A stretch of 64,000 nt of DNA, taken from the NCBI RefSeq assembly GCF_000725345.1, contig NZ_CP008852.1, forward strand, positions 2,968,001 through 3,032,000, written 5' to 3'. Positions 325 to 35,129 of the stretch are shown here, one piece after another. The position numbers and the translations under genes are program-made. The notes under the pieces were generated by a model. The model had not been told where the DNA came from. It ran no database searches and was given only the letters and a program-made list of their open reading frames with translations. Every line of letters begins with the position of its first letter. Within the stretch, counting starts at the first letter, position 1. This stretch comes from Pelosinus sp. UFO1 (GTDB lineage: Bacteria; Bacillota; Negativicutes; DSM-13327).

Positions 325-1593
325 TCATAATAACACCTTATTTGTCAATTGATTCACTGTGTAAGATAAACCATTCTCTACAGTATCACAGTACTCTACA
401 CTGTAAATTCCTTTTGCCCCTAATTGTAGTTTTGCATGATACCCAATACGCATTGTTAAAACAGCATCGCAATCTTGTACAGATAGAATTGTACCCTCTC
501 TTTTTGATTCGTCATTATCACACTCTTCCATACCCTGACAATATTGTTCTACTGCTCGTTTTTCTAATACCTGAAAGTCATGACCATCACCTTGATAAAT
601 AATAAATTCAGCAGCATGGCCAAAATGCTGATCAACAAGTTTGCCATACTTAGATGTGACAGCAATTTTATATTGTTTTTCCTCTACCTTGGGTGTCCTT
701 ATCTTTGGTGTTTGTCGGTTGCACATACGAAATTCTTGTGAACGATCTTCCCCCAAAAGTCCAATAGCATCCGCTCGGCATTGCTTACAATGCCTCATTT
801 GCTGAATATCGAGTTGGCAAGTATTCCTAAGATCATTAATATCTTTCATACTGGTTTGAGGGAATTCTTCAAAAGCACTACCTGGAGCAGGAATCAACGG
901 CATAATATTGGTAATAAAGGCACCAAGTTCTTTTACTTTCTTCACTACCTCAGGTATATGATGGTCGTTGATACCTTTTATCATCACAATATTAACCTTG
1001 ACTAGTACTCCACGTTGGGCTAGGTATTCGATACCTGCCAATTGATTTCTCGAAAGTAACTCTGCTGCCGCAGATCCTTCATAAATTTTCCCTTTATAAG
1101 AAACAAATTTATAAATTTTTGCTCCGATTTCAGGATCTAGTGCATTGACGGTCACTGTCACATGATGAACCCCTAGGGCAATAATTTCACTTGCATATTC
1201 TGGAAACATCAGCCCGTTCGTTGATAAACAAAATGTGACATCTGTGTTAGTTTCTTTTATTTTTTCAATTGTCGCCTTAGTATATTCCCAATTTGCCAAA
1301 GCATCACCTGGGCCAGCAATACCAACTACAGTTAGCTGGTCAATCTCTCTTTTTACCCAAACAAATTTTTCTTTGGCCAAATCTGGTGTTAAAACCTCGC
1401 TAGTTACGCCAGGCCTACTTTCGTTGACACAATCAAATTTCCGATTACAATAATTGCACTGTATATTACAATTAGGCGCTACTGGCAAATGGATGCGCGC
1501 ATATTTATTGTGTGCATCAGCGGAATAACAAGGATGTTTTTTTGTTTTCTCTAAGATCTGATCACTTATCAAATTAGGGGAAGGGTTAGTCAT
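325..1593 (-). CDS. nifB: NifB-type radical SAM cofactor-assembly protein with C-terminal NifX-like domain
   Basis: NifB is a radical SAM enzyme that builds the carbide-containing Fe-S core (NifB-co) of nitrogenase-type cofactors. The 422-aa protein has the HPCY motif at 20-23, the SAM cluster Cys42/46/49 (CX3CX2C), the ESRPGV motif at 58-63 and an AGPGDALAN stretch, all typical of genuine NifB. The last ~115 residues (from the YKIAV segment) form the NifX/NafY-like cofactor-binding domain common in full-length NifB. The ATG has AAGGAG nine bases upstream. It follows nifH copy 1 and has a two-hairpin leader in the junction. It is the only intact nifB here, so it probably serves all four DK pairs (inference). 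nifE and nifN are absent, which agrees with DK enzymes that use NifB-co directly. Confidence 0.93.
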   Translation of the reverse strand: MTNPSPNLISDQILEKTKKHPCYSADAHNKYARIHLPVAPNCNIQCNYCNRKFDCVNESRPGVTSEVLTPDLAKEKFVWVKREIDQLTVVGIAGPGDALANWEYTKATIEKIKETNTDVTFCLSTNGLMFPEYASEIIALGVHHVTVTVNALDPEIGAKIYKFVSYKGKIYEGSAAAELLSRNQLAGIEYLAQRGVLVKVNIVMIKGINDHHIPEVVKKVKELGAFITNIMPLIPAPGSAFEEFPQTSMKDINDLRNTCQLDIQQMRHCKQCRADAIGLLGEDRSQEFRMCNRQTPKIRTPKVEEKQYKIAVTSKYGKLVDQHFGHAAEFIIYQGDGHDFQVLEKRAVEQYCQGMEECDNDESKREGTILSVQDCDAVLTMRIGYHAKLQLGAKGIYSVEYCDTVENGLSYTVNQLTNKVLL

Positions 1594-1722: not shown

Positions 1723-2598
1723 TTATATTCCTTCTGCTTTACTGCGTACCTCGCCTGTTTCCATAGCCAATAACTGATCAGCCCATTTAGCAGCCCAATC
1801 TCTTAGCTCGCTAATCTCTAAGGGTGACGGAACTTTTGATTCTGTAGTTTCTATCACTTTTTTCGCAAGACTTTGATATACTTTAGCCTGTTCTGAATTA
1901 GGTGCCGCTTCTATCGTTGTTTTGCCTTGTAGCTCAGATTGGGTTACAGTAACTGAACGAGGAACATATTCCACAACACGGGTCTTAGTTCTAGCAACAA
2001 AATCATCGATGATATCTTTTGCATAAGAAGCATTGATGGAATTAGCAATTAAACCACCTAGCAACGCACCACCTGAATTAGAGTATTTCTGAATTCCTTT
2101 AAATAAATTATTAGCAGCATACATCGCCATAAAGTCTGCCGATGACACTGTAAATACATGTTCAGCAATGCCTTCACGTATAGGAACAGCAAAGCCACCG
2201 CATACTACATCTCCCAAAACATCATAAATAATTACATCTAAATCTAATTCTTCATACACTTTTAATTGTTTTAATAATTGTACCGCAGTAATAATCCCCC
2301 TGCCAGCGCAGCCAACTCCGGGAGCTGGCCCACCAGCTTCTACACAATACACTCCATTAAATCCTTGAAAAATTACATCTTGGGCATTTACCTTATTTTT
2401 TTCTCTTAACGTATCAAGCACTGTCGGAATATAAGTGCCATCTCGCAAAGTATTTGTAGAATCAGCTTTAGGATCACAACCAAACTGCATAACTTTATAG
2501 CCCATCGTCGATAGTGCTGCACTAATATTAGAGGTAGTGGTTGATTTACCAATTCCCCCTTTTCCATAAATAGCAATTTGTTTAATTTTTTTACTCAC
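1723..2598 (-). CDS. nifH: NifH-type Fe protein (dinitrogenase-reductase-like), copy 1
   Basis: A homodimeric ATPase carrying one [4Fe-4S] cluster that delivers low-potential electrons to a D2K2-type partner. The 291-aa sequence shows the P-loop at 12-19 (GKGGIGKS), cluster ligands Cys97 and Cys133, and the Arg100 site that is ADP-ribosylated in some nitrogenases. The start is GTG, preceded by GAGGAGG; copy 2 uses ATG at the same codon. By eye it differs from copy 2 (14030-14905) at about 16 residues, mostly in the last 90. Its own promoter and two-hairpin leader lie upstream. With no standard nifDK in the window, its likely partners are the nitrogenase-like DK pairs here, but a canonical nitrogenase elsewhere cannot be excluded. 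Confidence 0.92.
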
Positions 2599-2797: not shown

Positions 2798-3235
2798 TTA
2801 GTTCTTGATGAATGCAGCAACTTTTGGATCTTTCCTTAATTCCGCAAGGTCATCCCCAGTAGGCAGTTGTACCTTGTCACGCTCCACATTAACCAAACAT
2901 AAAAATCCCAAGGGGAATTCCCCATTTGCTTGAAACTGATGCCATGTCTTGGGCGGTATCGTAATTACATCATTTTCTCCAATAGAGTGAATGTTATCTC
3001 CTAAAAGAACCTGGCCAGCACCGCGCAGGATCATAACCAAGTGAACATGTTCATGTCGCTCTAATGATGAGTAACCGCCTGGCTGTACCTCAAAGTAACG
3101 AAGTTGGCAAGTTAGATCCCCCAGCCCATCAAATAAAACCTGACGACTAATGTTTTTAAAGTTTGTACCAGTTTCTTTATAGGCCAAAGAGGACACATTT
3201 TCCCACTTGTAATCTCCAGAATATTTCACTATCAT
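2798..3235 (-). CDS. Small single-domain cupin protein
   Basis: A 145-aa protein with one conserved cupin barrel. Likely metal ligands are in HEHVHLV (about 61-67) and the later PPKTWHQF stretch, which carries the distal His. No signal peptide is visible. Cupins of this size are metal-binding enzymes or sensors; the substrate cannot be read from sequence. It lies about 400 bases downstream of the RuBisCO-like gene and upstream of nifH1 and has no clear two-hairpin leader, although CTGG-CTAA-CCAG at about 3279-3290 resembles a lone P1. It may be co-transcribed with the RuBisCO-like gene. GGGG ten bases upstream supports the ATG. Confidence 0.8.
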   Translation of the reverse strand: MIVKYSGDYKWENVSSLAYKETGTNFKNISRQVLFDGLGDLTCQLRYFEVQPGGYSSLERHEHVHLVMILRGAGQVLLGDNIHSIGENDVITIPPKTWHQFQANGEFPLGFLCLVNVERDKVQLPTGDDLAELRKDPKVAAFIKN

Positions 3236-3640: not shown

Positions 3641-4771
3641 CTATACTTTTTCTACTAAATCCAAAAAGTATCGGCAGTTTTTAACTAAATCCGGCCCTTG
3701 CTTAAAGAGCCCACCACCCATTAGAAAGGCGACATCCTTACCATATACATCTAATAGTTCTGGAATACGCTCTATTGTCATGCCACCCCCCGGACTAGGA
3801 AAAATCGATTTTAAGTGTCCCATAGTTTCTTCCGTACCGCGAACAATAGCGCGACATTCGTCAATGCTAAAAGAAAAACGCCCGCCAAAGTTCGGATAAA
3901 TCACGGCATCAGCCCCGGCCAAACGGCTGATTTGCCCATAAAGAGCATAATGAGAAAAGCCAAATCCATAGGCAGAACTTGTTATATAACTGCCTTGAAA
4001 AGCAGGATGGCTAATGATAGGCAAAGCCAAACTATCTTCATCTGACAGCCAGCGCATCGTATCAAGCCCAATCAATGCAGGTGAGGCCAATAACCCGCCG
4101 ACTCCAGCCTGCTTGGCAAATTGCGATCTGGATAAGATTTCATTAGCAGGAGCAGTTATATTTGGCACGTAGATACTGTTGCGTCCAGTTTCACGATTGG
4201 CCTTATGAACAGCTTCGCTACACAGCGTAACACGCTCTTCGAAAGGCGCAAAGGTCTGATTACTAAGGCCGTGATCGTCTTTAATAATATCAATGCCGCC
4301 TACTGCACATCGGTAAACGATATCAGCCAGTTGCACCGAGGTCAATCCCATAGGTTTAATAGCTGCAAACAGCAGTGGGCGGTCGAAAACCCCAAGCACC
4401 TGACGCAGCCCTTCACGTCCAAAGCGCGGCCCCTTAAATACCTTAAGCAGACTATCTGGTAAAATCAATTGATCCACCAGAATACCAGGTTTAATGCTGA
4501 TATTGCCAAATACTACATTTAGCAATTGTGTTAGTTCATTTGCAGCTAGTTCAATCGCATAACTTATAACTACACGGTAACCTTGGTTGCTCTTAAGCGG
4601 CGCAAAGGAGTCAATGCGTCCCACTACTTCATTTTTTATAAAACCTGGTGCCAAAAGTTCATAGGGATATTCAATTGTCTGTTCGACGCAAATATCTTGG
4701 GCCTTAGCGTATGCTTCTTTTTCATTCCCTGTTACATGATAAATTACCGAAAAACGTTCTCCAGAAGTCAT
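3641..4771 (-). CDS. RuBisCO-like protein (form IV)
   Basis: The 376-aa protein has the RuBisCO large-subunit fold: an N-terminal alpha/beta domain to about residue 120, then a TIM barrel. Active-site parts remain: Lys139 in AIKPMGL (equivalent to the catalytic Lys175 loop) and Lys164-Asp165-Asp166 in GGIDIIKDD. The Glu that helps bind Mg in true RuBisCO is His167, and loop 6 is SPGGGMT without the usual Lys. It is therefore not a CO2 fixer. Known form IV proteins act as enolases or isomerases in 5-methylthioribulose-phosphate salvage, and in Rhodospirillum such a pathway feeds methylthio compounds to a nitrogenase-like reductase. A role on a methylthio-sugar fits this locus but is inferred. 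AAGGAG lies ten bases before the ATG. It has its own promoter and two-hairpin leader. Confidence 0.88.
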   Translation of the reverse strand: MTSGERFSVIYHVTGNEKEAYAKAQDICVEQTIEYPYELLAPGFIKNEVVGRIDSFAPLKSNQGYRVVISYAIELAANELTQLLNVVFGNISIKPGILVDQLILPDSLLKVFKGPRFGREGLRQVLGVFDRPLLFAAIKPMGLTSVQLADIVYRCAVGGIDIIKDDHGLSNQTFAPFEERVTLCSEAVHKANRETGRNSIYVPNITAPANEILSRSQFAKQAGVGGLLASPALIGLDTMRWLSDEDSLALPIISHPAFQGSYITSSAYGFGFSHYALYGQISRLAGADAVIYPNFGGRFSFSIDECRAIVRGTEETMGHLKSIFPSPGGGMTIERIPELLDVYGKDVAFLMGGGLFKQGPDLVKNCRYFLDLVEKV

Positions 4772-4861
4772 AGGTTAGACACTCCTTACTTCATTGTAAT
4801 CCTTTTATCAGGTGGGACTTTAATTCTTACTAAATCATCATAGTAGGTGAATGGCCTAGAA

Positions 4862-4923
4862 AAAGCAAAAAGGCTAAGAATATTCTCATCGAATGTTCTT
4901 AGCCTTTAGTTTTCTAATCAGCT
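4862..4923 (-). promoter_or_regulatory. Two-hairpin leader element, copy 3 (RuBisCO-like gene)
   Basis: GCU, GA, P1 UUAG/CUAA with AAAA loop, A, GGC, then the terminator GGCUAAGAA with UUCUUAGCC and UUUUU. About 90 bases separate it from the ATG. Confidence 0.92.
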
Positions 4924-4962: not shown

Positions 4963-4991
4963 ATGCTAACATTTTATGCTTATCATGTCAA
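4963..4991 (-). promoter_or_regulatory. Sigma-A-type promoter of the RuBisCO-like gene
   Basis: TTGACA (4986-4991), a 17-base spacer and TAGCAT (4963-4968). The leader begins about 40 bases downstream. Confidence 0.72.
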
Positions 4992-5050: not shown

Positions 5051-5629
5051 TTATTTATAAGCGTGACGATGGGGTGTGATGACTAAAGCTGGCTGGGTAA
5101 TATCTCCTTCAGGCATACCCTTAGTCTGATTAACTTTTCCGTGCCTTTCCTGTAAAGTTTCGAGTGGACCATAGTCCAATACCCGCATTGGACATGCCGA
5201 AACACAAACTGGTGGCTTACCTTCTGCCAATAATTCACGGCAAAAATCACATTTATCTATTTTTTTAGTTTTAGAATTATACTGGAGTGCATTATAAGGG
5301 CAGCTTCTAGTGCATTTTAGGCAACCTATACACAATTCTTGGTCAATATAAACAATACCATCCTCTATCCGCTTTTGGATTGCTCCAACTGGACAGCTGA
5401 TAGCACAAACTGGATTGATACAGTGATTGCAACTGATAGACAGCCAAAAGGCATAAACCTCAGGAATAACTGCAAAACCCTTTTCTTGATAACCCCCACC
5501 AACAACTTCCGATACTTTACGAAAAAGTTGTCCTACCTCTAAATCATTCTTATCTTTACAAGCAATTTGGCAGGTCATACAACCAGTACAATGTTTTTGT
5601 TCAAAATAAAATGCGAGTTGCTTGCCCAT
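5051..5629 (-). CDS. DmsB-like four-cluster ferredoxin subunit
   Basis: A 192-aa electron-transfer subunit of the DMSO-reductase type. Four cysteine groups are visible: CTGCMTCQIAC near the N-terminus, CNHCINPVCAISC, CIGCLKCTRSC and CDFC followed by CVSAC, enough for four [4Fe-4S] clusters. The C-terminal MRVLDYGP segment is typical of DmsB/PhsB/NrfC relatives. The gene starts three bases after the DmsA-like gene stops, with its Shine-Dalgarno inside that gene, so the two are translationally linked. No membrane-anchor (DmsC) gene follows, which suggests a soluble pair fed from a cytoplasmic donor. Confidence 0.9.
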   Translation of the reverse strand: MGKQLAFYFEQKHCTGCMTCQIACKDKNDLEVGQLFRKVSEVVGGGYQEKGFAVIPEVYAFWLSISCNHCINPVCAISCPVGAIQKRIEDGIVYIDQELCIGCLKCTRSCPYNALQYNSKTKKIDKCDFCRELLAEGKPPVCVSACPMRVLDYGPLETLQERHGKVNQTKGMPEGDITQPALVITPHRHAYK

Positions 5630-5632
5630 GTA

Positions 5633-7939
5633 TTATACCTCTCCTGCTTCATGCTTTTTAATTTGTACTAAATTAGTGTGCTGGGCATTACCAAAGGCTA
5701 ATGGCGTTGGATGGTACTTTGTCAAAGAATTTATACAACCGCGCTCATCAACCCCATGCTCATTTGGTGCCCACCAAGCGCCTTGCGGTATAGATACTAC
5801 CCCCGGCATGATGCGCGGTGTAATTTTTGCGGTTAGCACAATTGTACCACGATCATTGAAAACTTTTACTTTATCGCCATTATTTAGACCACGTTTCGCT
5901 GCATCCTTAGTATTTATCGACACTTGTTGTACTTCCGTTTCTTCCATCCAATCTGAATTATCCAGCGTAGAATGTACGCGACGTTTAGAGTGAGGTCCGA
6001 TACATTGTAGAGGATACTTTTCTCGCAATAGATCTTCTGGTCCCTCCCATGCTGTAACGTATTTCGGTACTGCTGGAATTTCTCGCGGCTGGTTCATCTC
6101 CCATAAACGGGTTGAAAAGATTTCAATTTTTCCAGATGGTGTCGGAAAGGGATTATTTTTCGGGTCTTCGATCTGTTTTTTAAAAGCAATCGCTGGTTCT
6201 GGATATTGCCAATGGTAAACACCTTTTTCCTTAAATTCTTCATAGGTCGGAAAACCAGGATTTTTCTTGGCAGTTTCTTCAACTAAATAGCGCATCCACT
6301 GTTCCAGTGTCTTACCTTCAGTAAATTTTTCCTTAAGCCCTAAGCGCTCTGCTAAATCAGCGATCCAGTCATATCCATTACGACATTCAAAAACAGTGTC
6401 AACGGCTTTGCTTATGTAGAGAGCATAATCGCCGAATCCCCATGGTAAAGTAATATCGTCACGCTCTAGCATGTTATCCGCTGGCAGTAGAATATCGGCA
6501 AACTTAGCACTTGATGTAAGAAATTGATCATTAACAACAATCAGTTCAACTAAACTTTCATCTGCCAATAATTCAGCCGTACCATTCGTATCAGCATGCT
6601 GATTAATTAAACAATTTCCTGCTAAGTTAAAAATGAGTTTAATGTTTGAAGATAATTGTTTAACACCTTTGACACTTAGATCGGCACCCATGCCTTTACC
6701 GCGTTTAATGGCATCGGGCCAACTAAATACAGATATTTGCGCTTTACAAGGATTAGAGGCTGGAATAGAGGCTACAAAGTTAGCCCGGGATTGCCCTCCA
6801 TTACCAGATGCCCAGCCGCCTTTGACACCAATATTGCCGGTTAACGCCGCCAATACGGTACCACTACGCACTACCTGCTCGCCATAAGCATGACGCTGAG
6901 GACCATAGCCTTGTATCAAAGCACCAGGGCGATTCGTTGCATATTCCCAAGCAAGCTGAACAATCGTCTCTACTGGTATACCTGTAATCCGTTCCGCCCA
7001 GGCAGGAGTTTTTGGCGTATTGTCTTCACTTTCACCTAGAATATAACTTTTATAGGACTGACCTACTGGAATTCCTGGTGGCATATGCTCTTCGTCAAAA
7101 CCTAGGCAGTATGTATCAAGAAATTTTTTGTCATGGATATTTTCTGTAATCATTACATAAGCCATTGCATCTAGAAGAGCACTGTCCGTCGTTGGGCGAA
7201 TCGGTATCCACTGATCAGCAAGGGCGGCAGCTGTATTCGAATAGATAGGGTCAATACTGATAATTTTTGCTCCAGCTGCTTTGGCTAATTTAAGGTAATA
7301 GGCTGTATTGGTTCCCCACACTACATCCGCAGGATTCCAACCAAGCAAAATAATCAGCTTGGAATTAACCCAATCTTCTCTGCTATTGCCCGTCCGGGTT
7401 GTACCAAAGGTAAAAGGAGTAGCCATTGACGAACATGCCGAGCTGTAGCTCCCATAATAGGAAAGGAATCCTCCATCTAAACCCATTAAACGTTCCATCC
7501 AGGTACGTTCAGCTACTCTCCCCACATTACCCGTACCATAATTCAAATAAATGGCTTCGGGGCCGTATTGCTGACGAATGCGTTTCGTATGACTCGCAAT
7601 ACTATCTAGTGCTTCATCCCAGGAAATACGTTCGAATTTCCCTTCACCTCGTTTACCTACTCGTTTCATGGGATATTTCAATCGGTCGGGATGGTAAAGT
7701 CGGTCTCGATACCCACGGCACCGCATACATCCTCGCAATTGGAGCATTTCTTCTGTATCTGGATGTTCATTATCCGTAGTTATGCGGACGACTCGCCCAT
7801 CCCGAACATGGGCCTTATTCAAGCATCTTCCACCGCAATTATGCGTACCTGAGGTAGGCACAATCTTTATATCGGACTCCGTCTTTTTCATCACTGTTGA
7901 ACTAGGCTTCTTATCTAATGGTATTTGAGGCTTGGGCAT
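5633..7939 (-). CDS. DmsA-like molybdopterin oxidoreductase, apparently cytoplasmic
   Basis: The 768-aa protein belongs to the DMSO-reductase family and is closest in look to DmsA. The N-terminal cluster region has Cys35, Cys39 and Cys71; the position of the first classical Cys is Gly31, so one normal ligand is absent, though Cys74 is near. A YYGSYSSA motif (161-168) carries the serine expected to bind molybdenum in DmsA. A C-terminal dinucleotide-binding domain follows (PLQCIGPHSKRR onward). There is no twin-arginine signal: the N-terminus is Lys/Pro-rich and lacks a hydrophobic segment. It lies downstream of the K1-D1 pair, upstream of the DmsB-like gene. A reductase for DMSO or another S- or N-oxide that feeds the reduced compound to D1K1 is attractive but inferred. 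Confidence 0.88.
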   Translation of the reverse strand: MPKPQIPLDKKPSSTVMKKTESDIKIVPTSGTHNCGGRCLNKAHVRDGRVVRITTDNEHPDTEEMLQLRGCMRCRGYRDRLYHPDRLKYPMKRVGKRGEGKFERISWDEALDSIASHTKRIRQQYGPEAIYLNYGTGNVGRVAERTWMERLMGLDGGFLSYYGSYSSACSSMATPFTFGTTRTGNSREDWVNSKLIILLGWNPADVVWGTNTAYYLKLAKAAGAKIISIDPIYSNTAAALADQWIPIRPTTDSALLDAMAYVMITENIHDKKFLDTYCLGFDEEHMPPGIPVGQSYKSYILGESEDNTPKTPAWAERITGIPVETIVQLAWEYATNRPGALIQGYGPQRHAYGEQVVRSGTVLAALTGNIGVKGGWASGNGGQSRANFVASIPASNPCKAQISVFSWPDAIKRGKGMGADLSVKGVKQLSSNIKLIFNLAGNCLINQHADTNGTAELLADESLVELIVVNDQFLTSSAKFADILLPADNMLERDDITLPWGFGDYALYISKAVDTVFECRNGYDWIADLAERLGLKEKFTEGKTLEQWMRYLVEETAKKNPGFPTYEEFKEKGVYHWQYPEPAIAFKKQIEDPKNNPFPTPSGKIEIFSTRLWEMNQPREIPAVPKYVTAWEGPEDLLREKYPLQCIGPHSKRRVHSTLDNSDWMEETEVQQVSINTKDAAKRGLNNGDKVKVFNDRGTIVLTAKITPRIMPGVVSIPQGAWWAPNEHGVDERGCINSLTKYHPTPLAFGNAQHTNLVQIKKHEAGEV

Positions 7940-8018
7940 TTATCATTTTTCCTTTCAAAAGCACTATGGAATATATCAAAATTCTGTCACATTTTTTCAT
8001 TTAGATAAGATTCGAGCA

Positions 8019-9485
8019 TTAGACCACATCCTCCTGCAAAAATGTAAAGCTATCCTGTTCTAACCACCAATTCGTATAAGGAAGTTTTACATGCAGCGCC
8101 AGATTTTTCGCCAAATTGCGGTTAGTTAATACATCAATAAGTCTGTGACCGAAATCAACTAATCCTTGATATCCATAGGCACTAAATTCATCAGCAACCA
8201 TAATGGAAGGTATCCCTAATTTTGTTGCCCATACCGTTGTGCCACCATGACGACCGATATACAAATCGGGTTTAAGTCGATTTAATAAATTAATAACCTC
8301 AAAATTCTGCTGGTCGGCCACACTGACAGGGATGTCGGTTTCAGCACTTAATAAAAATTGTGAAGCCTCAGGACTAACGCCATTGTCATGCTGTGGATCA
8401 AAATGCCAAGTAGATCCCCAAATCACTTCAACACCGAGTTCTTGCAGCGTCCTAATATAATTATGACCAAAACTTGGTCCCATACCAACAACTGCTTTAT
8501 ACCCCTCTAGCTTTCCTCTTACCTCAGCCAAATCAGCAGCAACTTTTTCTTTTTCTTCACTAATATAGGCTTCCACTTCAACTTCCTTACCAGTCGCTAC
8601 TCCAAGCCCTCGCAGCCAACTATCCATACCAGCAATACCATGAGGCTGCAAGGTTTGAATATAAGGGACTCCATACTGCTCTTCAAGAGCATTGCCTAGG
8701 TAACTACCTAAGGTTCCGCAAATACTAATTGTTGCGGCAGACTCCGAGATTTTCGACAACTGTTCGATGGTGCTAAAGGGCACAATAAATACTGGCTCCA
8801 ATCCAAAACGAGCCAGAGTCGCAGTGATCTCTTTGCGTGCACTACCAGTAAAGTTAATCATATTTACTTTGTTGTTTTTTTGCTGTGGTGGTTTGACAAT
8901 TGCTGTCACGATCGCATGCAAGGCAGCGTCAAAGCCAGAAGCCCACACCTTAGAGCGAAAACCTTCGCAAAAAACAGGAGCAAGAGGCACGGGTATTTCC
9001 TCCTGCAGTTCATCCAATACACTTTTCACATCTTCGCCAATGATGCCCGATACGCAAGAAGTCGTCACAAAAATTGCTTTGGGGTTAAACCGTCTGTAAG
9101 CTTCTCTCACAGCAACCTTCAGTTTGCCCACAGCACCAAACACCGTATCTTCCTCAACCATATTGGTATTAATGATATTGACATTGGTGTGTTTCCAATT
9201 CCTAATCTTTTCTCCCCATTTTCGATTCGTATTCGCAGCAATGGTATCTGCCGCACAACCTACTGGTCCATGGATAACAATTGCCGCATCTAAAATTGCA
9301 GAAAGATAAAATTGAGCGCAACCAGAGCTACAAGCGCTGGCTTGGCTAAAACATCGCTCTTTATTTTTCAAGGAGCCACATGATCCTTGTGCTACTAAAT
9401 CACGTATGGTGCCTTGATATCCAGTAATCGATCCTAGTCTATTTTCTCTTGTCGGTGCTTCAGAACTCTGTAAATTTATCGCCAT
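8019..9485 (-). CDS. Nitrogenase-like D subunit, pair 1 (D1)
   Basis: NifD/NifE superfamily, 488 aa from the ATG at 9485 (GGGAGG ten bases upstream). P-cluster-type cysteines are present at 52 or 56 (ACSSGC), 77 (GPVGC) and 144 (TTSCVSGIIG). Cys256 in ISICGTLGSY lines up with the cofactor ligand Cys275 of NifD. The segment that carries the cofactor His442 in NifD reads MVADEFSAYGYQG here, without an obvious His. This matches group-IV nitrogenase-like proteins such as methylthio-alkane reductase rather than N2-fixing NifD. It is preceded by its K partner, the reverse of the other three pairs, and followed by the DmsAB-like genes. The substrate is unknown; a C-S bond-containing compound is the leading guess. 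Confidence 0.88.
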   Translation of the reverse strand: MAINLQSSEAPTRENRLGSITGYQGTIRDLVAQGSCGSLKNKERCFSQASACSSGCAQFYLSAILDAAIVIHGPVGCAADTIAANTNRKWGEKIRNWKHTNVNIINTNMVEEDTVFGAVGKLKVAVREAYRRFNPKAIFVTTSCVSGIIGEDVKSVLDELQEEIPVPLAPVFCEGFRSKVWASGFDAALHAIVTAIVKPPQQKNNKVNMINFTGSARKEITATLARFGLEPVFIVPFSTIEQLSKISESAATISICGTLGSYLGNALEEQYGVPYIQTLQPHGIAGMDSWLRGLGVATGKEVEVEAYISEEKEKVAADLAEVRGKLEGYKAVVGMGPSFGHNYIRTLQELGVEVIWGSTWHFDPQHDNGVSPEASQFLLSAETDIPVSVADQQNFEVINLLNRLKPDLYIGRHGGTTVWATKLGIPSIMVADEFSAYGYQGLVDFGHRLIDVLTNRNLAKNLALHVKLPYTNWWLEQDSFTFLQEDVV

Positions 9486-9541
9486 GGGTAAAATCCTCCC
9501 TTCATTAATCCAATTGATAAAATACATCTCATAAAATATTT

Positions 9542-10858
9542 CTATTGAAAATCTTCCAACACGATTGAATAAATATCTTCAACCAACCGTAATGCACCGC
9601 CATATCCTACATAAGAGCGGTTTAGTACCAACCGATCACTTACTGGCATGGATACTGACAATTGGTAACCATTAATTTCTTCTGCCAAAACCTTCTCCCA
9701 GGCGCTACCAATGAGTAATGGCCTGCCACGAAGCTTGATTTTGCGAATATCTTCATGTACTGCCCCGCCGTCATTATCAAATATAATATTCGCTGTGATA
9801 CCATCTGCAAAATTTTTAAACTCGGCTTCGATATCAGCTTGGTATACTTCTGTTACTCCATCAGTTATATATTGTGTTTCAGGTAGTAATCCCAAATCGT
9901 TGATTAAAAATTTGGAGATCCCCAGAGAATAGAAACTATCGGCAATCGTGATAAAACGCCTTGGTAACAATCTTGTTTCAAGAAGTACGTCTGCTGAACG
10001 TTCTATGTAATAATAATAGTCAGCTTCATACTTACTGATGACCTTCTCAATTTTTTCTTCATCGACACCTGCATATTTACCCACATTCCGGAGAAATTTA
10101 TTGGTCTCCGTAGGTCCAATGGGTAAAACGGGATAATGTAAATAAGGTGTCCCAAATTTTTCTTCTAAATGCTTAACATTTTTTAGACCGACCCATGGAG
10201 AGATTAATAGATTAAACTGGGCCTTAGGAACTTTCGCCAGAGCATCAAGACCATGACCTGGTCCAAAAATAACATTAGGTTTGAGTCCTAGCTCAGCAAT
10301 CAGAGATCCTAATTCTTTAAGATTACCTACCCAAAAGGGATCATGGAAAGGTACAACTGACCAAATATTCACAAGACCTGGTTCCACTGTTTCACCAGGC
10401 TGTAAATACTGATCGATGATGGCATCAAGCACCAATTCATGCCCGAATAAATTGGTCCCTTTAAACCCACCTGTTTCAACAAAGACCACAGGCTTCCCCT
10501 GCTCCTGAAAACGATGAGCCACTTCGCCAACATCATCACCTACAATATCTGAAGTGCAACCAGTCAAAATAACAAAAAGATCAGCATCGATCACCTCTAG
10601 AGAATTTTTAACGATATTTCGAAGTCGCTCGTCACCACCAAATATGACCTCTTTTTCTCCGATATTAGTGCAAGGCACTGAATGTCCCCCCACATAACCA
10701 GAACCTTGGCATCCATTTTGAAAACCTAAAGCTCCCCACAACTTTTGCCCGCAGCCTGGCCCTGCATGAAGTATGGGGACTGCCCGATCAATTGCTAGTA
10801 CCGATTGCAATGCTCCTAGAGAGCATACATGTCTAACTTGTTCAACATGTTGTGACAT
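9542..10858 (-). CDS. Nitrogenase-like K subunit, pair 1 (K1)
   Basis: NifK/NifN superfamily, 438 aa. Cys12 (VCSLGAL), Cys36 (GPGC) and Cys101 (TGCTSDIVGDD) correspond to the three K-side P-cluster ligands. I chose the ATG at 10858 because AGAGGTGG sits just before it and the remaining protein then aligns with K2-K4; the open frame extends 20 codons further. It is short for a NifK, lacking the N-terminal extension. It is downstream of the ABC importer genes and upstream of D1, with a 70-bp inverted repeat between importer and K1. Confidence 0.87.
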   Translation of the reverse strand: MSQHVEQVRHVCSLGALQSVLAIDRAVPILHAGPGCGQKLWGALGFQNGCQGSGYVGGHSVPCTNIGEKEVIFGGDERLRNIVKNSLEVIDADLFVILTGCTSDIVGDDVGEVAHRFQEQGKPVVFVETGGFKGTNLFGHELVLDAIIDQYLQPGETVEPGLVNIWSVVPFHDPFWVGNLKELGSLIAELGLKPNVIFGPGHGLDALAKVPKAQFNLLISPWVGLKNVKHLEEKFGTPYLHYPVLPIGPTETNKFLRNVGKYAGVDEEKIEKVISKYEADYYYYIERSADVLLETRLLPRRFITIADSFYSLGISKFLINDLGLLPETQYITDGVTEVYQADIEAEFKNFADGITANIIFDNDGGAVHEDIRKIKLRGRPLLIGSAWEKVLAEEINGYQLSVSMPVSDRLVLNRSYVGYGGALRLVEDIYSIVLEDFQ

Positions 10859-10920
10859 TAGACCACCTCTTCCTCTCAAACTTCTTATATATATTGAACT
10901 AAATATCCTTAAAGGCAATC

Positions 10921-11058: not shown

Positions 11059-12081
11059 TCACTCAAAGGCATGGGTTATAATGTCGGAAGCCTTTATTTT
11101 TCCTTTAGGAATTACATTTGAGTTTTCCAAGTCTTGTATCCATGGTTCAATTTCCGATTCATTTATTTTAGTATCGGAAGCGTAATAATGTACAGCATTA
11201 ACTGGTACTTTAATCCAGTCTTCCGTCATTTTTCGAGACTCTTCCGGATTATCATTCGCCCATTTTTGAGCTTTGGTAATAGCTCGCGCAAATTTTTTGA
11301 TTGTATCAGGATGTTTATCTATAAATTCATCGGTGAAGAAATAAAATCCTAAACCACCTGCTACGCCAACACCAGCATCTAAGCTATCTGCAATTTTGAC
11401 AGCACCCGACTCTTCCATGCCTTTATAATATGGTGGATGTACACCTGCTACCGTTATAAGGCCTTGCTTTAATGCTTGAATTGCTTGAATATCAGGCATG
11501 GAAACCCACTCAATTTTATTTCTAGGAAATCCTTGATGATCTGCAATATTATTTCCGAGGAAATCTGCGCATATATTATTCGTGATCGTAGAAAATTTAA
11601 GTTGACCAGATAGTTTGTTCAAATCGGCAAAGGAATGAACATCTGGGGTAACTGCAGGATTTACATACCAAAACATATGACGTAGTCTTGGATTTTGATC
11701 TGGTGTTGGATCAATACCATTTTTCACCACACCCTTAATTTTTGCTCCTCCAGCAATTGCTACAGTGAGAGTATTCGGGTGAGCACTACCCACATCATTA
11801 TTGCCATTAAGAACAGAAGGGAGTTGTTGAGCAGGCTGCGTATCCCCCGTATAAACAACCTTAAGTCCTTCTTCTGCAAAAAATCCCTTCTGATCTGCAA
11901 CAATCCAAGGCGTGGAAGCGCAATCAGTCTTCGACCAGGTTTTTATAGGGTATAACCCATCATCCTTTGTACCACTGCTAGCGGGTTTATTACCAAGCTG
12001 GGCACCATAGACTACTGAGCCCACTACGACAAGGGCAACGATTCCTAATAAAATTTTCTTTACAATCTTCTTGTCAGCCAT
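11059..12081 (-). CDS. ABC importer substrate-binding protein, NMT1/SsuA-like
   Basis: A 340-aa periplasmic binding protein of the NMT1/THI5/SsuA type. The N-terminal hydrophobic segment (about 8-27) looks like a signal peptide or anchor, with no lipobox Cys. A typical opening, PWIVADQKGFFAEEGLKVVY, and an AAA/NMT1 body follow. The ATG at 12081 has AAGGAG at ten bases; the upstream GTG has its Shine-Dalgarno too close. It is followed by K1-D1 and preceded by two permease genes. Relatives bind sulfonates, thiamine precursors or other small anions, so an organosulfur substrate is plausible. Confidence 0.87.
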   Translation of the reverse strand: MADKKIVKKILLGIVALVVVGSVVYGAQLGNKPASSGTKDDGLYPIKTWSKTDCASTPWIVADQKGFFAEEGLKVVYTGDTQPAQQLPSVLNGNNDVGSAHPNTLTVAIAGGAKIKGVVKNGIDPTPDQNPRLRHMFWYVNPAVTPDVHSFADLNKLSGQLKFSTITNNICADFLGNNIADHQGFPRNKIEWVSMPDIQAIQALKQGLITVAGVHPPYYKGMEESGAVKIADSLDAGVGVAGGLGFYFFTDEFIDKHPDTIKKFARAITKAQKWANDNPEESRKMTEDWIKVPVNAVHYYASDTKINESEIEPWIQDLENSNVIPKGKIKASDIITHAFE

Positions 12082-12099
12082 AATATACACTCTCCTTTT

Positions 12100-12945
12100 T
12101 TAATATTCAGCCGGATTTTCTTTCCAGCTTATGAATTTGCGTTCGAGTATAACAAACAGATAATTCATGAACAATCCTAAGGCAGATATGGTAATTGTAG
12201 CCGCAAACAAAATTGGAATTTGATAGTTAGTTTGTGCATTCCATATCAACCAACCTAGACCACTACTTGCACCAATCATTTCAGCGGCGATGAGCATAAA
12301 AAACGCTACACTTGAACTGGTTTTAAGACCATGAAAGATGTTCGGCGAAGCAGCTGGCAATATAACTTTGAAAAATAATGTTCTTCCTCCTACCCCCATG
12401 GAACGCGCCGACTTAATTAACAACTCATCGACATTTTTAATTCCTGTGATGGTGTTTAGCAAAATTGGCCACAAGCATACCCAAAAAATCATGGATATCT
12501 TAGATACCTCGCCAATACCAAACAAGAGAATAAAGATCGGGAAAAGAGAAAATGGATTTACTTCCCCAAGTAGCCGTAGCACTGGAGTGAGAATACGTTC
12601 AAAGAGTTTAAACCATCCTCCTAGAAAAAAACCTAAAGGAATGGCAATCACAGCTGCACACACAAAACCAAAAACAGCCCTCCCTAAACTGACTCCAATA
12701 TGTTTTATTAAAATACCACTTACTAGCAGCTCCCAAAGAGTACTTACGATAATTGTCGGTGGTGAAATAAAGGTTTGCGGGACCCAGCCCACTCTAGGCG
12801 CTATTTCCCAAATTCCAATAAAAATAATAATTGATAGACTATCATAAACGATTGCAGTTATTTTTTTTAGTAGCGTTCCTACTTTATCTTGCTCAATATG
12901 CTTTCCCGACCTTTTCTCTACTACTTTTTGCAATGCTGTTTCCAT
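12100..12945 (-). CDS. ABC importer permease, SsuC-like (first of a pair)
   Basis: A 281-aa integral membrane protein with about six hydrophobic segments and the permease EAA-type loop (SARSMGVGGRTLFFKVILPAA, around 185-205). The ATG at 12945 with GAGGGG nine bases upstream is preferred over a TTG three codons earlier. It is related to, but clearly different from, the adjacent 12951-13733 gene, so they probably form a heterodimeric channel. Confidence 0.88.
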   Translation of the reverse strand: METALQKVVEKRSGKHIEQDKVGTLLKKITAIVYDSLSIIIFIGIWEIAPRVGWVPQTFISPPTIIVSTLWELLVSGILIKHIGVSLGRAVFGFVCAAVIAIPLGFFLGGWFKLFERILTPVLRLLGEVNPFSLFPIFILLFGIGEVSKISMIFWVCLWPILLNTITGIKNVDELLIKSARSMGVGGRTLFFKVILPAASPNIFHGLKTSSSVAFFMLIAAEMIGASSGLGWLIWNAQTNYQIPILFAATITISALGLFMNYLFVILERKFISWKENPAEY

Positions 12946-12950
12946 TTTTA

Positions 12951-13733
12951 TCAACCCCTCTCAGAACTTTGCTTCCAATCCAATAGATTATCTTCCAGCA
13001 AGTAAAGCAGATAATTGATTGTCATTCCTAATAAAGCAATGGTCATCGTTGCCGCAAATAACCGGGGCATAATATTATTTACCGCTGAGTTCTGAACCAG
13101 CCATCCAAGACCAGCGCTAGCGCCAATCATTTCAGCTGCAATTAGCATTAGAAATGCATGGGATGCGCCCGTTCGTATCCCTGTAAAAATAACCGGGGCT
13201 GCTCCTGGTAAAATCACTTTGCTAAAGATGGTAAATTTATCAGCACCAATTGACCGTGCACTTTTAATATAAAGAGGATCGACATTCTGAACACCAACAA
13301 TGGTAGTAAAAAGTACTGGCCAAATTGTGGACCAAAAGATAATGCTTACCTTGGCAACTTCACCAATTCCAAAAAACAGAATAAAGATTGGAAAAAGGGA
13401 AAAAGCGTTAATTTGTCCGAATACTCGCAGTAGTGGCCTTAGTTGTCTTGATAACGCTGGGAAAACACCACCTAAAATAAAACCAGCAGGCACTGCAACG
13501 GCAATTGCCAGCACGAATCCAATAAAACTCCTCTGTAAGCTTGCGGCAATATGAATGAACAAACTACCATCCGCTGCAAGTTTTCCGACCGCTAAAAGTA
13601 CTTGGGACAGTGGCGGAATAAATTGACCGTCGACGATTCCAAGGCGTGGTGCTATTTCCCATAGTAGAAAGAAAATTACAATTCCTGAAACATCGATTAA
13701 TTTATCCACTAGACTATTTACATGATCTTTCAT
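12951..13733 (-). CDS. ABC importer permease, SsuC-like (second of a pair)
   Basis: A 260-aa membrane protein with about six membrane spans and the EAA-type loop SARSIGADKFTIFSKVILPGA. It begins downstream of the nifB scar. No ATP-binding gene accompanies this binding protein and permease pair, unlike the importers at 40045-42750 and 50425-53296. It may borrow one of those ATPases (41683-40811 or 52283-51474). Confidence 0.88.
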   Translation of the reverse strand: MKDHVNSLVDKLIDVSGIVIFFLLWEIAPRLGIVDGQFIPPLSQVLLAVGKLAADGSLFIHIAASLQRSFIGFVLAIAVAVPAGFILGGVFPALSRQLRPLLRVFGQINAFSLFPIFILFFGIGEVAKVSIIFWSTIWPVLFTTIVGVQNVDPLYIKSARSIGADKFTIFSKVILPGAAPVIFTGIRTGASHAFLMLIAAEMIGASAGLGWLVQNSAVNNIMPRLFAATMTIALLGMTINYLLYLLEDNLLDWKQSSERG

Positions 13734-14029: not shown

Positions 14030-14905
14030 TTAAATTCCCGATGCTTTGCCACGCACTTCGCCTGTTTCTATTGCCAATAAGTGATCCGCCCATGAGGCAG
14101 CCCACGCTCGCAATTCGCTTATTTGCAATGGTGCAGGAACTTTTGATTCCGTAGTTTCGATCACCTTTTTCGCAAGGCTTTGGTACACTTTCGCTTGCTC
14201 CGAATTTGGTGACGCTTCTATCGCGGTTTTTCCTTGCAGCTCAGCTTGGGTTACAGTGACGGAACGGGGAACATATTCCACAACGCGCGTCTTGGTTCTA
14301 GCAACAAAGTCATCAATGATATCTTTCGAGTACGGAGTATTGATGGAATTCGCAATCAAGCCACCTAACAGCGCACCACCTGAATTAGAATATTTTTGAA
14401 TGCCTTTAAACAAATTGTTCGCGGCATAAACAGCCATAAAATCGGCGGATGACACTGTAAAAACATGCTCAGCAATACCTTCACGTATGGGAACGGCAAA
14501 ACCACCGCATACTACGTCTCCTAAAACATCGTAAATGATTACATCTAAATCTAATTCTTCATATACGTTTAACTGTTTTAACAATTGGACCGCAGTAATG
14601 ATCCCCCTACCAGCACAACCAACTCCTGGAGCCGGTCCACCAGCTTCCACACAATAAACTCCATTGAAACCTTGAAAAATCACATCTTGGGCATTTACCT
14701 TATTTTTTTCTCGCAGTGTATCGAGCACTGTAGGAATATAAGTTCCATCCCGCAAAGTATTGGTGGAATCGGCTTTAGGATCGCAACCAAACTGCATCAC
14801 TTTATAACCCATTGTTGATAACGCGGCACTAATATTAGAGGTCGTGGTGGATTTACCAATTCCCCCTTTTCCATAAATAGCAATTTGTTTAATTTTTTTA
14901 CTCAT
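14030..14905 (-). CDS. nifH: NifH-type Fe protein, copy 2
   Basis: A 291-aa near-duplicate of the protein at 1723-2598 (about 16 differences by eye, ~94% identity). P-loop 12-19, Cys97, Cys133 and Arg100 are retained, so it should be functional. The start here is ATG. Differences cluster in the C-terminal third, which contacts the DK partner in nitrogenase, so the copies might favour different DK pairs (inference). The duplicated block runs from the gene through the leader and nifB remnant. Confidence 0.92.
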
Positions 14906-22492: not shown

Positions 22493-23857
<1,365 letters not shown>

Positions 23858-23872
23858 CTATTTGTTTTTTTA

Positions 23873-25225
23873 CTAAGCACTAGCACTTACTGTAGTTGTA
23901 TATATTTTTTCGAGTAAGGCCAGAGCCCCCCGATATCCTACATAGGACCTGGAAAGAACCAATTCATAGGATGCTGGAAATCCGACTTCCACAATTGCTC
24001 CCTTTAACTCTTTGGCAAGATCTCGCTCCCAAGTCGTGCCAAATATGATAGGAGCCTTGTGACCGAAGTTTGTTTGCCTAATTTTTTGATGGATAATATA
24101 ACTATCTTCTTCAAATTCAACATCTGTGGCTACATCCTCAGCGATCTTTCGATACTCTTCTCGAATGTTTTCCCGATATTCTTCTGGTGGATTCTCCGTG
24201 ATAATTTGTTTACCTGGAATAATCCCCAACTGATTCACTAAAAATTTAGTTAACGCAAGATTGTAGGCACTATCACCAACAACGGCAAATTTTGCCGGCA
24301 ATCCCCACCAATATTCCGCATAGAAATCGGAGAAGCTTTCTAGATAATGATAATAAGTCTCCTCCTCTTGCCGAATAAACTCTTCAACTGGAGCATGATC
24401 CAGCCCTGCAAAAGCTGCTACTTTACGCAAAAAGCTACTGGTTTCTTGCGCTCCAATAGGAATTACAGGTACGTGCAGGTACGGTTGTTCATATTTACTT
24501 TCTAAATGCTCAGCTGTCTGAAGACCTAACCAAGGAGAAAGAACTAAATTAAATTGAGCCTTAGGAATATGCTTCCATTCAGATACGCCTTTCGATTCAT
24601 AGCCAAACAATATGTTTACTTTAAGACCAATCCCTTCTAATATACGCTTGATTTCCGTGAGATCACCACGCCAAAAGGTATTATGGTATGGTAATAGGGA
24701 CCAAAGGTTGACAGTAGCCTGCTGCCGTGGCCCATCATACTCTCCTACATATTGATCAATAATAGCGCGCGTCACCAGTTCGTGACCGGTAAAATTATTA
24801 CCTTTAAAACCACCTGTTTCAGCATAAACAATAGGGACACCTTGCTCTTGAAATTCTTTAACCACAGATCCTACATCATCCCCTACCAAATCTGAAATGC
24901 AGCCTGTCAAAACAACAAATAAATCTGTATCTAGAATTTTAATAGAAGCCTTGATTAATTCTCGCAATCGCCCTTCACCTCCGAATACCACATCTAATTC
25001 TCTAGAGTTCGTACTCGGCACCACTGCACCACCACCATATCCTCCTCCCTGAAAGCCATTATAAAATGCAACATTCATAAACTGTTTGTCTGCACAACCA
25101 GGACCACAATGGACAATAGGAATGACGCGGGGAATAGCCGAGGCGCTATGCATAGCAGCAATGGAGCAAACATAACGTATTTGCTGAATAGAATTGGTGT
25201 TTTTTGTCTCTTCAATATCAGGCAT
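23873..25225 (-). CDS. Nitrogenase-like K subunit, pair 2 (K2)
   Basis: NifK/NifN superfamily, 450 aa. Candidate cluster ligands are Cys20 (YVCSIAAM), Cys44 (GPGC) and Cys109 (TGCISDLVGDD). The gene overlaps D2 by eight bases, so the two subunits are translationally coupled. It resembles K1 and K3 more than K4 by eye. Followed by metY. Confidence 0.88.
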   Translation of the reverse strand: MPDIEETKNTNSIQQIRYVCSIAAMHSASAIPRVIPIVHCGPGCADKQFMNVAFYNGFQGGGYGGGAVVPSTNSRELDVVFGGEGRLRELIKASIKILDTDLFVVLTGCISDLVGDDVGSVVKEFQEQGVPIVYAETGGFKGNNFTGHELVTRAIIDQYVGEYDGPRQQATVNLWSLLPYHNTFWRGDLTEIKRILEGIGLKVNILFGYESKGVSEWKHIPKAQFNLVLSPWLGLQTAEHLESKYEQPYLHVPVIPIGAQETSSFLRKVAAFAGLDHAPVEEFIRQEEETYYHYLESFSDFYAEYWWGLPAKFAVVGDSAYNLALTKFLVNQLGIIPGKQIITENPPEEYRENIREEYRKIAEDVATDVEFEEDSYIIHQKIRQTNFGHKAPIIFGTTWERDLAKELKGAIVEVGFPASYELVLSRSYVGYRGALALLEKIYTTTVSASA

Positions 25226-26756
25226 GTTTTTTTCCCTCCGTATACAATGGATTCTCTTCCTTTGCCAAAATAAATGGGTCTTCCTGATCCAGCCACCATT
25301 GTTTATAAGGCAGCTTAGTGTGTGATGCTAAATCTTGATGAAATTTCTTATGTGCCAAAATATCAAGTATCGATTCGCCTAAATTAATGATTCCCTGATA
25401 TCCCAAGGAATGATGCTCATCGCCAAGGGGCGCAGCCGGAATTCCCATACGAGAAGCCAAGGGCGCAAGACCATTGTGGCGAATAAGAATAAAATCAGGA
25501 TTCACTCTTTTGAGTAAACTATAAAATTGGTGTTGCTGACGATTGCTCACAGTAAAATGTGAAACATCCCCATAGTTATCAACTACATGAGCAAGGGAGT
25601 CTTGCCTAGGATCTTGACTGTCATAAATTGGATCGTGATGGAATACAAGTGAGCCATTCACTTCGACTCCTAATTCTCGAAGTACAGTAATCAATCCGTG
25701 GGCATAAGCAGAACCCGTTGCAACATAGCCCTTTTTTCCCTTAAGAAGGGTACGCAATTCTGTTAGACGAGGGGCAATCCTTGCATGCTCTTTGGCAATA
25801 TAAGCTTCTGCCTTTTCCTCCCTGTGGGTAACTCGTGCCAATTCTCGAAACCAAGCATCTGTCCCTGCAAAACCATAAGGCTGAGGTGCCTTAATTTCTG
25901 GAACACCAAATTCTTGTTCTAACCCTGCCGCCATATAGGAAGAAAGGGTATAGCAAAACCCAACAGTAGCTGCCGCTTCAGAAAGTTGTTCTAGATCTTC
26001 TACGGTTGCCAGGTCAACTACATAGTTAACTCTAAGTCCTAGTTCAGCAAGCATCGGAGTAAAAATATCTGAACCCCATAAGTTAATCACATTGACTAGA
26101 TCTTCTTGCTTTTTAGGATTTTTACGTACGACTTGCCTTATGATACCGTGCTGGGTTGCATCGAAGCCAGTACTCCAGTGTTTGGACTTAAAGCCTTCGC
26201 AATGGAGGGGAATGACAGGTATCTTAAGCTCAGTTTCCATCTGACTTGCTGTACCATCCACATCATCACCAATAATTCCAGTAGCGCAAGAGGTGGCAAT
26301 AAAAATAGCTTTCGGATGATAACGTTCCCATGCATCTCGAATGGACTGTTCTAATTTGGCAACGCCCCCATAGACCATATCTTCTTCTAGTAGATTCGTG
26401 CAAATCACATGCTGGTTTTCTACTGGTAAATTGCGCCCCGCCAAACCATTGCGATAGATGGAATTATAGATGACTTGGCCTGCACCGCAGCCAATCGGTG
26501 AATGCTGAATCAGTACTGCATTGCGAATATGACCAGCTTGGCATTCTACCATTTGCTCACTGCAAACAGATCCTTGCGTGAATGGCCCCTCAATCTCGCA
26601 AAGTTTACGCGACTTTTCTCCACAAGTCGTTTCACAACTACCACGTGCATAAGCTGATTCCTTAGAAAGATCTGACGCCTTTCCATCCCAGGAAATAATG
26701 GTGCCAAGACGTTGTTCACGACTTTCAACTACTGGAGTCTTAAAATTAATCTTCAT
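25218..26756 (-). CDS. Nitrogenase-like D subunit, pair 2 (D2)
   Basis: NifD/NifE superfamily, 512 aa from the ATG at 26756 (AAGGAG eight bases upstream; a GTG three codons earlier is too close). Candidate P-cluster ligands: Cys65 (SVCSEQ), Cys90 (SPIGC) and Cys157 (ATSCATGIIGDD). Cys268 in VGFCYTLSSY matches the cofactor-ligand position. The FHHDPIYD motif corresponds to the HNDDYD segment of NifD. The region of NifD His442 reads GDEHHSLGYQG, with a His pair two residues displaced. The longer N-terminus carries extra cysteines (41, 45, 53). Led by two-hairpin leader copy 10. Confidence 0.88.
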   Translation of the reverse strand: MKINFKTPVVESREQRLGTIISWDGKASDLSKESAYARGSCETTCGEKSRKLCEIEGPFTQGSVCSEQMVECQAGHIRNAVLIQHSPIGCGAGQVIYNSIYRNGLAGRNLPVENQHVICTNLLEEDMVYGGVAKLEQSIRDAWERYHPKAIFIATSCATGIIGDDVDGTASQMETELKIPVIPLHCEGFKSKHWSTGFDATQHGIIRQVVRKNPKKQEDLVNVINLWGSDIFTPMLAELGLRVNYVVDLATVEDLEQLSEAAATVGFCYTLSSYMAAGLEQEFGVPEIKAPQPYGFAGTDAWFRELARVTHREEKAEAYIAKEHARIAPRLTELRTLLKGKKGYVATGSAYAHGLITVLRELGVEVNGSLVFHHDPIYDSQDPRQDSLAHVVDNYGDVSHFTVSNRQQHQFYSLLKRVNPDFILIRHNGLAPLASRMGIPAAPLGDEHHSLGYQGIINLGESILDILAHKKFHQDLASHTKLPYKQWWLDQEDPFILAKEENPLYTEGKKHA

Positions 26757-26781
26757 ACTAGTCACTCCTTATAAGTCTTTA

Positions 26782-26798
26782 TATACTTTCTGATTCCG
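26782..26798. repeat. Fragment of the dispersed repeat (17 bp)
   Basis: An exact 17-base match to the end of repeat copy A (114-130). It lies between leader copy 10 and D2. As in copies A and B, it directly abuts a strong hairpin. Confidence 0.6.
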
Positions 26799-26801
26799 TA
26801 T

Positions 26802-26870
26802 AAAAAGAGACCAGCCTTAATCCTCTAATGAGAGGTGTAAGACTGGTCTCTAGTTTATCTACTAGCCAAC
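26802..26870 (-). promoter_or_regulatory. Two-hairpin leader element, copy 10 (K3-D2 junction)
   Basis: GUU, GG, P1 CUAG/CUAG, A, GAC, then the terminator GAGACCAGUCUUA with UAAGGCUGGUCUC and UUUUU. The GUU/GAC/GUC variant covaries in all three strands. It lies in the 150-base gap between K3 and D2. Confidence 0.92.
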
Positions 26871-26905
26871 CACTTTTAATTTTTATTTACATTGGATTTA
26901 TTTTA

Positions 26906-34902: not shown

Positions 34903-35012
34903 AACTCTTATCTAGAGAGGTCGAGGGACTGGCCCTATGACACCCGGCAGCCGGCAGCAATGCAACGGTGCTAATTCCAGCAGGAGCAATCCTGAAAGAT
35001 GAGAGGAATGTG
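34903..35012 (+). promoter_or_regulatory. SAM-I (S-box) riboswitch aptamer
   Basis: Typical S-box blocks appear in order: CTTATCTAGAGAGGTCGAGG, GGGACTGGCCCTATGA, ACCCGGCAGCC, GGTGCTAATTCCAGC and GATGAGAGGA closing P1. It should terminate metA transcription when SAM is plentiful. It is the only known riboswitch I can identify in the window. Confidence 0.96.
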
Positions 35013-35053: not shown

Positions 35054-35129
35054 TTACCCCACTTGATTAGAAGAGCATAACAGCCTTCTATTGAGTTTTT
35101 ATAATATCAAAAAAATGGAGGAATGCACT

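Follow-up and report, generated by a model that had tools for sequence, protein, structure and literature searches.

E. coli DmsABC, R. rubrum MarBHDK, and the IsrBHDK locus of R. capsulatus are the described systems closest to the locus analyzed here. DmsABC is encoded by a respiratory operon. The pocket and cofactor-ligand residues of MarD are available for comparison (PMC12552129). The IsrBHDK locus combines a nitrogenase-like enzyme with an SsuABC-type importer, belongs to sulfur assimilation, and is co-induced with a DMSO reductase A subunit (PMC11423573). That gene, rcc02281 ('dimethyl sulfoxide reductase, A subunit'), was 264-fold up together with the nitrogenase-like operon with isethionate as the source of sulfur (PMC11423573, Table 1). 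Our literature search, which covered few subscription papers, found no paper joining a nitrogenase-like enzyme with a DmsAB operon.

We analyzed a 64,000-nucleotide stretch (the window) of the closed 5.115-Mb genome of Pelosinus sp. UFO1 (G000). An operon on the minus strand, running from 13733 to 5051, has the order SsuC-SsuC-SBP-K1-D1-DmsA-DmsB (Table 1). It resembles the IsrBHDK locus in its nitrogenase-like enzyme, its importer, and its sulfur setting. It differs in that IsrB is not NifB-like and in that the R. capsulatus DMSO reductase gene lies 34 locus tags off the island edge, not in the operon. K1-D1 resembles R. rubrum MarBHDK in its best PDB match, its NifB- and NifH-type partners, and its retained cofactor ligands.

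Table 1. Features of the Pelosinus window, in window coordinates.
Feature	Position	Strand	Basis
NifB-type cofactor maturase	325..1593	-	TIGR01290, 502.8 vs 343.65
NifH-type reductase	1723..2598	-	TIGR01287, 417.8 vs 394.35
Cupin, probable methylthioxylulose-5-phosphate methylsulfurylase	2798..3235	-	PDB 3kgz, E 2.2e-46; 3jzv Rru_A2000, E 5e-45
RuBisCO-like protein (RLP), next transcription unit	3641..4771	-	best PDB match 3qfw, E 4.6e-72
Intrinsic terminator 3' of DmsB	4860..4907	-	12-bp stem and T tract
DmsB-like subunit, 16 cluster cysteines	5051..5629	-	TIGR02951 above cut-off; E. coli DmsB alignment
DmsA-like Mo-bis-MGD subunit, predicted cytoplasmic	5633..7939	-	TIGR02166 above cut-off; N-terminus; relatives
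FS0 cluster region (Gly31, Cys35, Cys39, Cys71, Cys74)	7718..7849	-	Cys31/Cys74 exchange in 45 relatives
D1, nitrogenase-like alpha subunit	8019..9527	-	best PDB match MarD 9fmg, E 1.2e-107, 39% identity
K1, nitrogenase-like beta subunit	9542..10858	-	best PDB match MarK 9d9u_C, E 3.9e-131
Substrate-binding protein (SBP), SsuA/NMT1 type	11059..12090	-	TIGR01728, PF09084
ABC permease 2 (SsuC-like)	12100..12954	-	PRK11365 SsuC, 139 bits, below cut-off
ABC permease 1 (SsuC/TauC-like), first gene of the operon	12951..13733	-	NCBIfam SaoP/TauC/SsuC matches, below cut-off
MetY, O-acetylhomoserine sulfhydrylase, possible entry point of methanethiol	22544..23842	-	TIGR01326, 663 bits, above cut-off
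K2, partner of D2	23873..25225	-	PF00148-type nitrogenase component 1
D2, MarD orthologue, candidate consumer of methylthio compounds	25218..26765	-	79% identity to R. rubrum MarD

A predicted cytoplasmic DmsAB at the end of the operon

DmsA begins 79 bp after D1 with no terminator between them, and DmsA and DmsB are separated by 3 bp. The 71-base stretch containing the terminator after DmsB folds at -23.9 kcal/mol, and its hairpin is identical in G006, another genome from this genus. The short gaps and the conserved terminator indicate that the K1-D1 operon ends with DmsA and DmsB and that RLP opens a new unit. Judged by this gene anatomy, DmsAB is predicted to be co-transcribed with K1-D1. 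A promoter-like sequence (TTGACA-17-TAGCAT, 4963-4991) is located upstream of the hairpin (4869-4907), so the hairpin could double as an attenuator of the RLP unit. The K1 ORF extends to 10918, and the end of the region in the preliminary description, 10858, is the ATG inside that ORF. D1 probably starts at the ATG at 9485. G006 has the same gene order at locus L037, and its DmsA and DmsB are each ~96% identical to the proteins encoded in the window, which indicates that the K1-D1-DmsA-DmsB arrangement did not arise by chance. The dN/dS between the two genomes is 0.10 for DmsA and 0.25 for DmsB. The DmsA value shows that the enzyme is maintained by selection and rules out DmsAB as a pair of functionless genes.

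The DmsA-like protein scores 963.7 bits with TIGR02166 (dmsA_ynfE; cut-off 777.7), and the DmsB-like protein scores 227.2 bits with TIGR02951 (cut-off 214.1). As in E. coli, the molybdenum-ligand serine is present (Ser166 in YGSYS, aligned with YGDYS of E. coli DmsA), and all 16 cluster cysteines of DmsB are conserved in the alignment, which puts the four 4-Cys clusters at the same places. The genome encodes four molybdopterin oxidoreductases, and this protein is the only close DmsA among them. TIGR02166 also covers selenate and tellurate reductases, and family models do not split these selenate enzymes from DMSO reductases.

The Pelosinus pair differs from E. coli DmsABC in lacking a Tat signal, a DmsC subunit, and a nearby TorD-type chaperone, and in belonging to a sulfur operon rather than a respiratory one. 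The 30 residues that precede the DmsA cluster domain contain neither a Tat motif nor a hydrophobic segment. The end of D1 lies so close upstream that a signal peptide could not have been overlooked, which rules out a Tat signal missed through annotation error. Searches of the closed genome for DmsC (PF04976) and NrfD (PF03916) anchors found neither, and the E. coli controls were detected. An anchor of either type encoded elsewhere in the genome is therefore ruled out. No TorD gene was found near DmsAB; the only TorD/NarJ-family protein of the genome is NarJ-like, lies in the nar locus at 1.72 Mb, and adjoins a 1231-aa Nar-like enzyme. These data bear out the preliminary description of a DmsA-like protein without a twin-arginine signal and a DmsB-like subunit, encoded directly after K1-D1 and lacking a membrane anchor.

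The nearest DmsA relatives are found in G002 (same genus), G026, and G316, at 76-78% identity. Clear Tat signals (TRRKFL, SRRRFL) and adjoining TorD genes are present in all three, the G002 neighbor being assigned to TorD from similarity of size and position only. Their DmsB proteins are 68-72% identical to the Pelosinus subunit, and they share the Gly31/Cys74 signature described below, but they stand outside any nitrogenase-like operon. In two of the three, G002 and G026, a small PepSY-TM-like protein with two transmembrane segments is encoded as well. The G000/G006 soluble pair is nested among these exported relatives in the tree, so DmsAB looks like an exported enzyme that turned cytoplasmic. 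Other Tat-less DmsAB pairs occur on several branches in the class, indicating that export has been lost repeatedly and without a link to nitrogenase-like operons. The pairs of G004, G162, and G304 likewise lack a Tat signal and a recognized anchor, form a two-gene unit, and carry Gly31/Cys74, but they are ~70% identical, sit on other branches, and have no recognized adjoining sulfur genes. No sulfur genes were recognized around the soluble pairs at L042-L044, L063, and L064 of the same class. The neighbors of soluble relatives are purine-salvage-like genes (assigned from N-terminal sequence only) or an amidohydrolase.

Gly31 and Cys74 in the FS0 region of DmsA

Gly31 (codon 7847-7849) aligns exactly with the first cysteine of the C-x3-C-x3-C motif of E. 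coli DmsA, as the preliminary description had placed it. Pelosinus DmsA also differs from the E. coli protein in an extra cysteine, Cys74 (codon 7718-7720). Gly31 is a trait of the whole DmsA subfamily, exported members included. Residue 74 is cysteine in 18 of 45 relatives, and all 18 have Gly31. Residue 31 is cysteine in 20 of the 45; all 20 have Gly74 and none has Cys74. The remaining 7 have neither cysteine, and one of these probably reflects an ORF that is truncated or has a wrong start. The two states change few times on the DmsA tree. A sign test on three independent lineage pairs gave opposite directions at the two sites with no contrary case, a number too small for significance. The occurrence of Gly31 throughout the subfamily and its pairing with Cys74 suggest that the cluster ligand probably moved and was not lost. 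Most simply, the fourth FS0 ligand was probably relocated from position 31 to Cys74 (C71-x2-C74). An AlphaFold2 model of DmsA (17 relatives) has a mean pLDDT of 77.6, but residues 32-39 and 64-83 around the cluster fall below 50, too weak to place Cys74. These data weaken the proposal that Gly31 may alter electron flow, because the glycine is shared by the subfamily and Cys74 would compensate for it.

Nitrogenase-like pairs and sulfur genes of the island

The identity of D1 to R. rubrum MarD is 39%. D1 retains the [Fe8S9C] ligands Cys270 and His429, along with the hallmark Arg428 and Trp195, Phe199, and His375. On the substrate side Cys73 is replaced by Phe, Gln74 by Tyr, and His194 by Val, and these positions are variable in the D1 clade. 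In contrast, D2 is identical to MarD at all nine positions (C73, Q74, H194, W195, F199, C270, H375, R428, and H429). Its overall identity to MarD and the retention of these residues make D2K2 the likely methylthio-alkane reductase here and the true orthologue in the window. D2K2 is located 14 kb upstream of K1-D1 in the same island and stands beside MetY. We regard K1-D1 as a related enzyme with its own importer, a candidate and not a proven C-S lyase.

Five nitrogenase-like DK pairs occur within ~58 kb (genome 2960720-3018274), and their pocket residues differ from pair to pair. They are located at 8019-10918, 23873-29687, and 47594-50424 of the window and at G000:C1:2960612-2963480. Further nitrogenase-type clusters are found at 42-48 kb and at 4.06 Mb. 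The Arg428-His429 of MarD reads His-Met or Gly-His in the D subunits at 48934-50424 and L071:10612-12126, which are predicted to represent additional nitrogenase-like subtypes in which the surroundings of the cofactor are altered. Two near-identical NifH genes are present in the island (1723-2598 and 14030-14905).

Downstream of DmsAB, the RLP and the methylsulfurylase-type cupin are adjacent and form a putative gene set for the MTA-isoprenoid shunt, a described pathway (PMC5893883). The segment 3236-3470 holds the remnant of an alpha/beta-hydrolase gene, of which only the start and scraps are left; its intact counterpart in G006 (L037:16151-16975, 274 aa) lies between RLP and cupin. A SAM riboswitch (34905-35005, 87.8 bits) precedes metA at 35091, and MetNIQ-like methionine uptake genes are also in the window.

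The extent of the K1-D1/DmsAB linkage was determined in the 14 genomes of the class that have a D1 orthologue (at least 70% identity). DmsAB adjoins K1-D1 only in the closely related G000 and G006. In each of the other 12, the inspected 19 to 21 kb contain no DmsAB, and most of these genomes have the unit NifH-NifB-SsuC-SsuC-SBP-D1-K1 or parts of it. Eight of these 12 have no close DmsA match. A nitrogenase-like gene is likewise missing from the vicinity of ~20 more DmsA-like genes in further genomes of the phylum. Thus, DmsAB is an optional addition and not a partner needed by K1-D1, which is at odds with the idea that K1-D1 is generally supplied by DmsAB. An independent echo of the Pelosinus setting occurs in G316, where a DmsAB of another subtype (53%) that has no Tat signal is separated by 2.8 kb from an RLP (64%) and by 15 kb from a nitrogenase-like pair. 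The closest DmsA in that genome (76%) is exported and lies 17 kb from another nitrogenase-like pair. The surrounding locus L047 (G316:C1:570001-590000) is an unusual C1/sulfur cluster in which the RLP and soluble DmsAB are accompanied by transketolase-type, corrinoid, and URO-D/methyltransferase-like genes and an acetyl-CoA synthase subunit.

Candidate roles of DmsAB

We tentatively favor the reading that the two subunits of DmsAB form a cytoplasmic molybdenum S-oxide reductase for sulfur assimilation, with the substrate, donor, and hand-over of the product being what we infer. A Tat-exported ancestor would have lost its signal peptide, TorD chaperone, and membrane partner, and the soluble pair would then have joined the end of an operon encoding an ABC importer and a nitrogenase-like enzyme. 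A sulfoxide (DMSO, methionine sulfoxide, or another methyl sulfoxide) would be imported or formed internally and reduced with electrons passed from a soluble donor, ferredoxin or flavodoxin, through the DmsB clusters. The resulting sulfide would be cleaved by one of the island's nitrogenase-like enzymes, more probably D2K2 than K1-D1, and the methanethiol would enter methionine through MetY. The evidence counted for this reading is the operon anatomy, the missing Tat signal and anchors, the exported nearest relatives and their place in the tree, the selection on DmsA, the set of sulfur genes on both sides (the SsuA/SsuC transporter, RLP and cupin, MarDK, MetY, and MetA under the SAM riboswitch), the soluble DmsAB near an RLP in G316, and the co-induction of rcc02281 in R. 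capsulatus (PMC11423573). Counted against it are the K1-D1 linkage in two related genomes only, the soluble pairs elsewhere without sulfur genes, the breadth of TIGR02166, an operon that contains no gene for a soluble electron donor, and the exported state of the closest G316 DmsA. The soluble enzyme, the co-transcription with K1-D1 (by anatomy), and the sulfur-assimilation setting of the earlier proposal are supported, whereas its substrate, DMSO or methionine sulfoxide, is not readable from sequence; nor is any other.

A possible but rather unlikely alternative is that DmsAB is unrelated to sulfur assimilation. It would then be a soluble oxidoreductase acting on an N-oxide, selenate, or some other acceptor, an electron sink or a detoxification enzyme that was inserted behind D1 and borrows the operon promoter. 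The recent, lineage-specific insertion would fit this view, as would the non-sulfur neighbors of the soluble relatives and family models that do not separate DMSO from selenate reductases. Two copies that are conserved, evolve under purifying selection, and close a sulfur-type operon argue against it, and so does the different DmsAB subtype that adjoins an RLP in G316. DmsAB might instead be a repair enzyme that reduces methionine sulfoxide or oxidized methylthio metabolites and protects salvage while opening no new sulfur source. The cytoplasmic location, the MTA-salvage RLP and cupin immediately downstream, and the MetNIQ-like genes are consistent with repair, but RLP and cupin lie behind the terminator in a separate unit, and few oxidized metabolites are expected in a strict anaerobe, making this role improbable. 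That K1-D1 itself cleaves a dialkyl sulfide such as DMS made by DmsAB, as the preliminary description had it, appears very doubtful. The shared operon and the [Fe8S9C] ligands and hallmark arginine retained in D1 speak for such a role; its distance from MarD, the replacement of C73, Q74, and H194, positions that differ among members of its clade, and the 12 genomes with K1-D1 and no adjoining DmsAB speak against it. The genuine MarDK, D2K2, is the better candidate for DMS cleavage.

The exchange between Gly31 and Cys74 would be a small, checkable example of a cluster ligand shifting along the chain. A full anaerobic, all-cytoplasmic route, in which a non-respiratory DmsAB reduces a sulfoxide, nitrogenase-like cleavage frees a hydrocarbon (methane from DMS), and the methanethiol becomes methionine, is speculative and on present evidence unlikely. 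If it is true, DMSO reduction would gain an assimilatory role beside respiration, and DMSO would supply biological methane by way of nitrogenase-like chemistry in firmicutes of soils and sediments.
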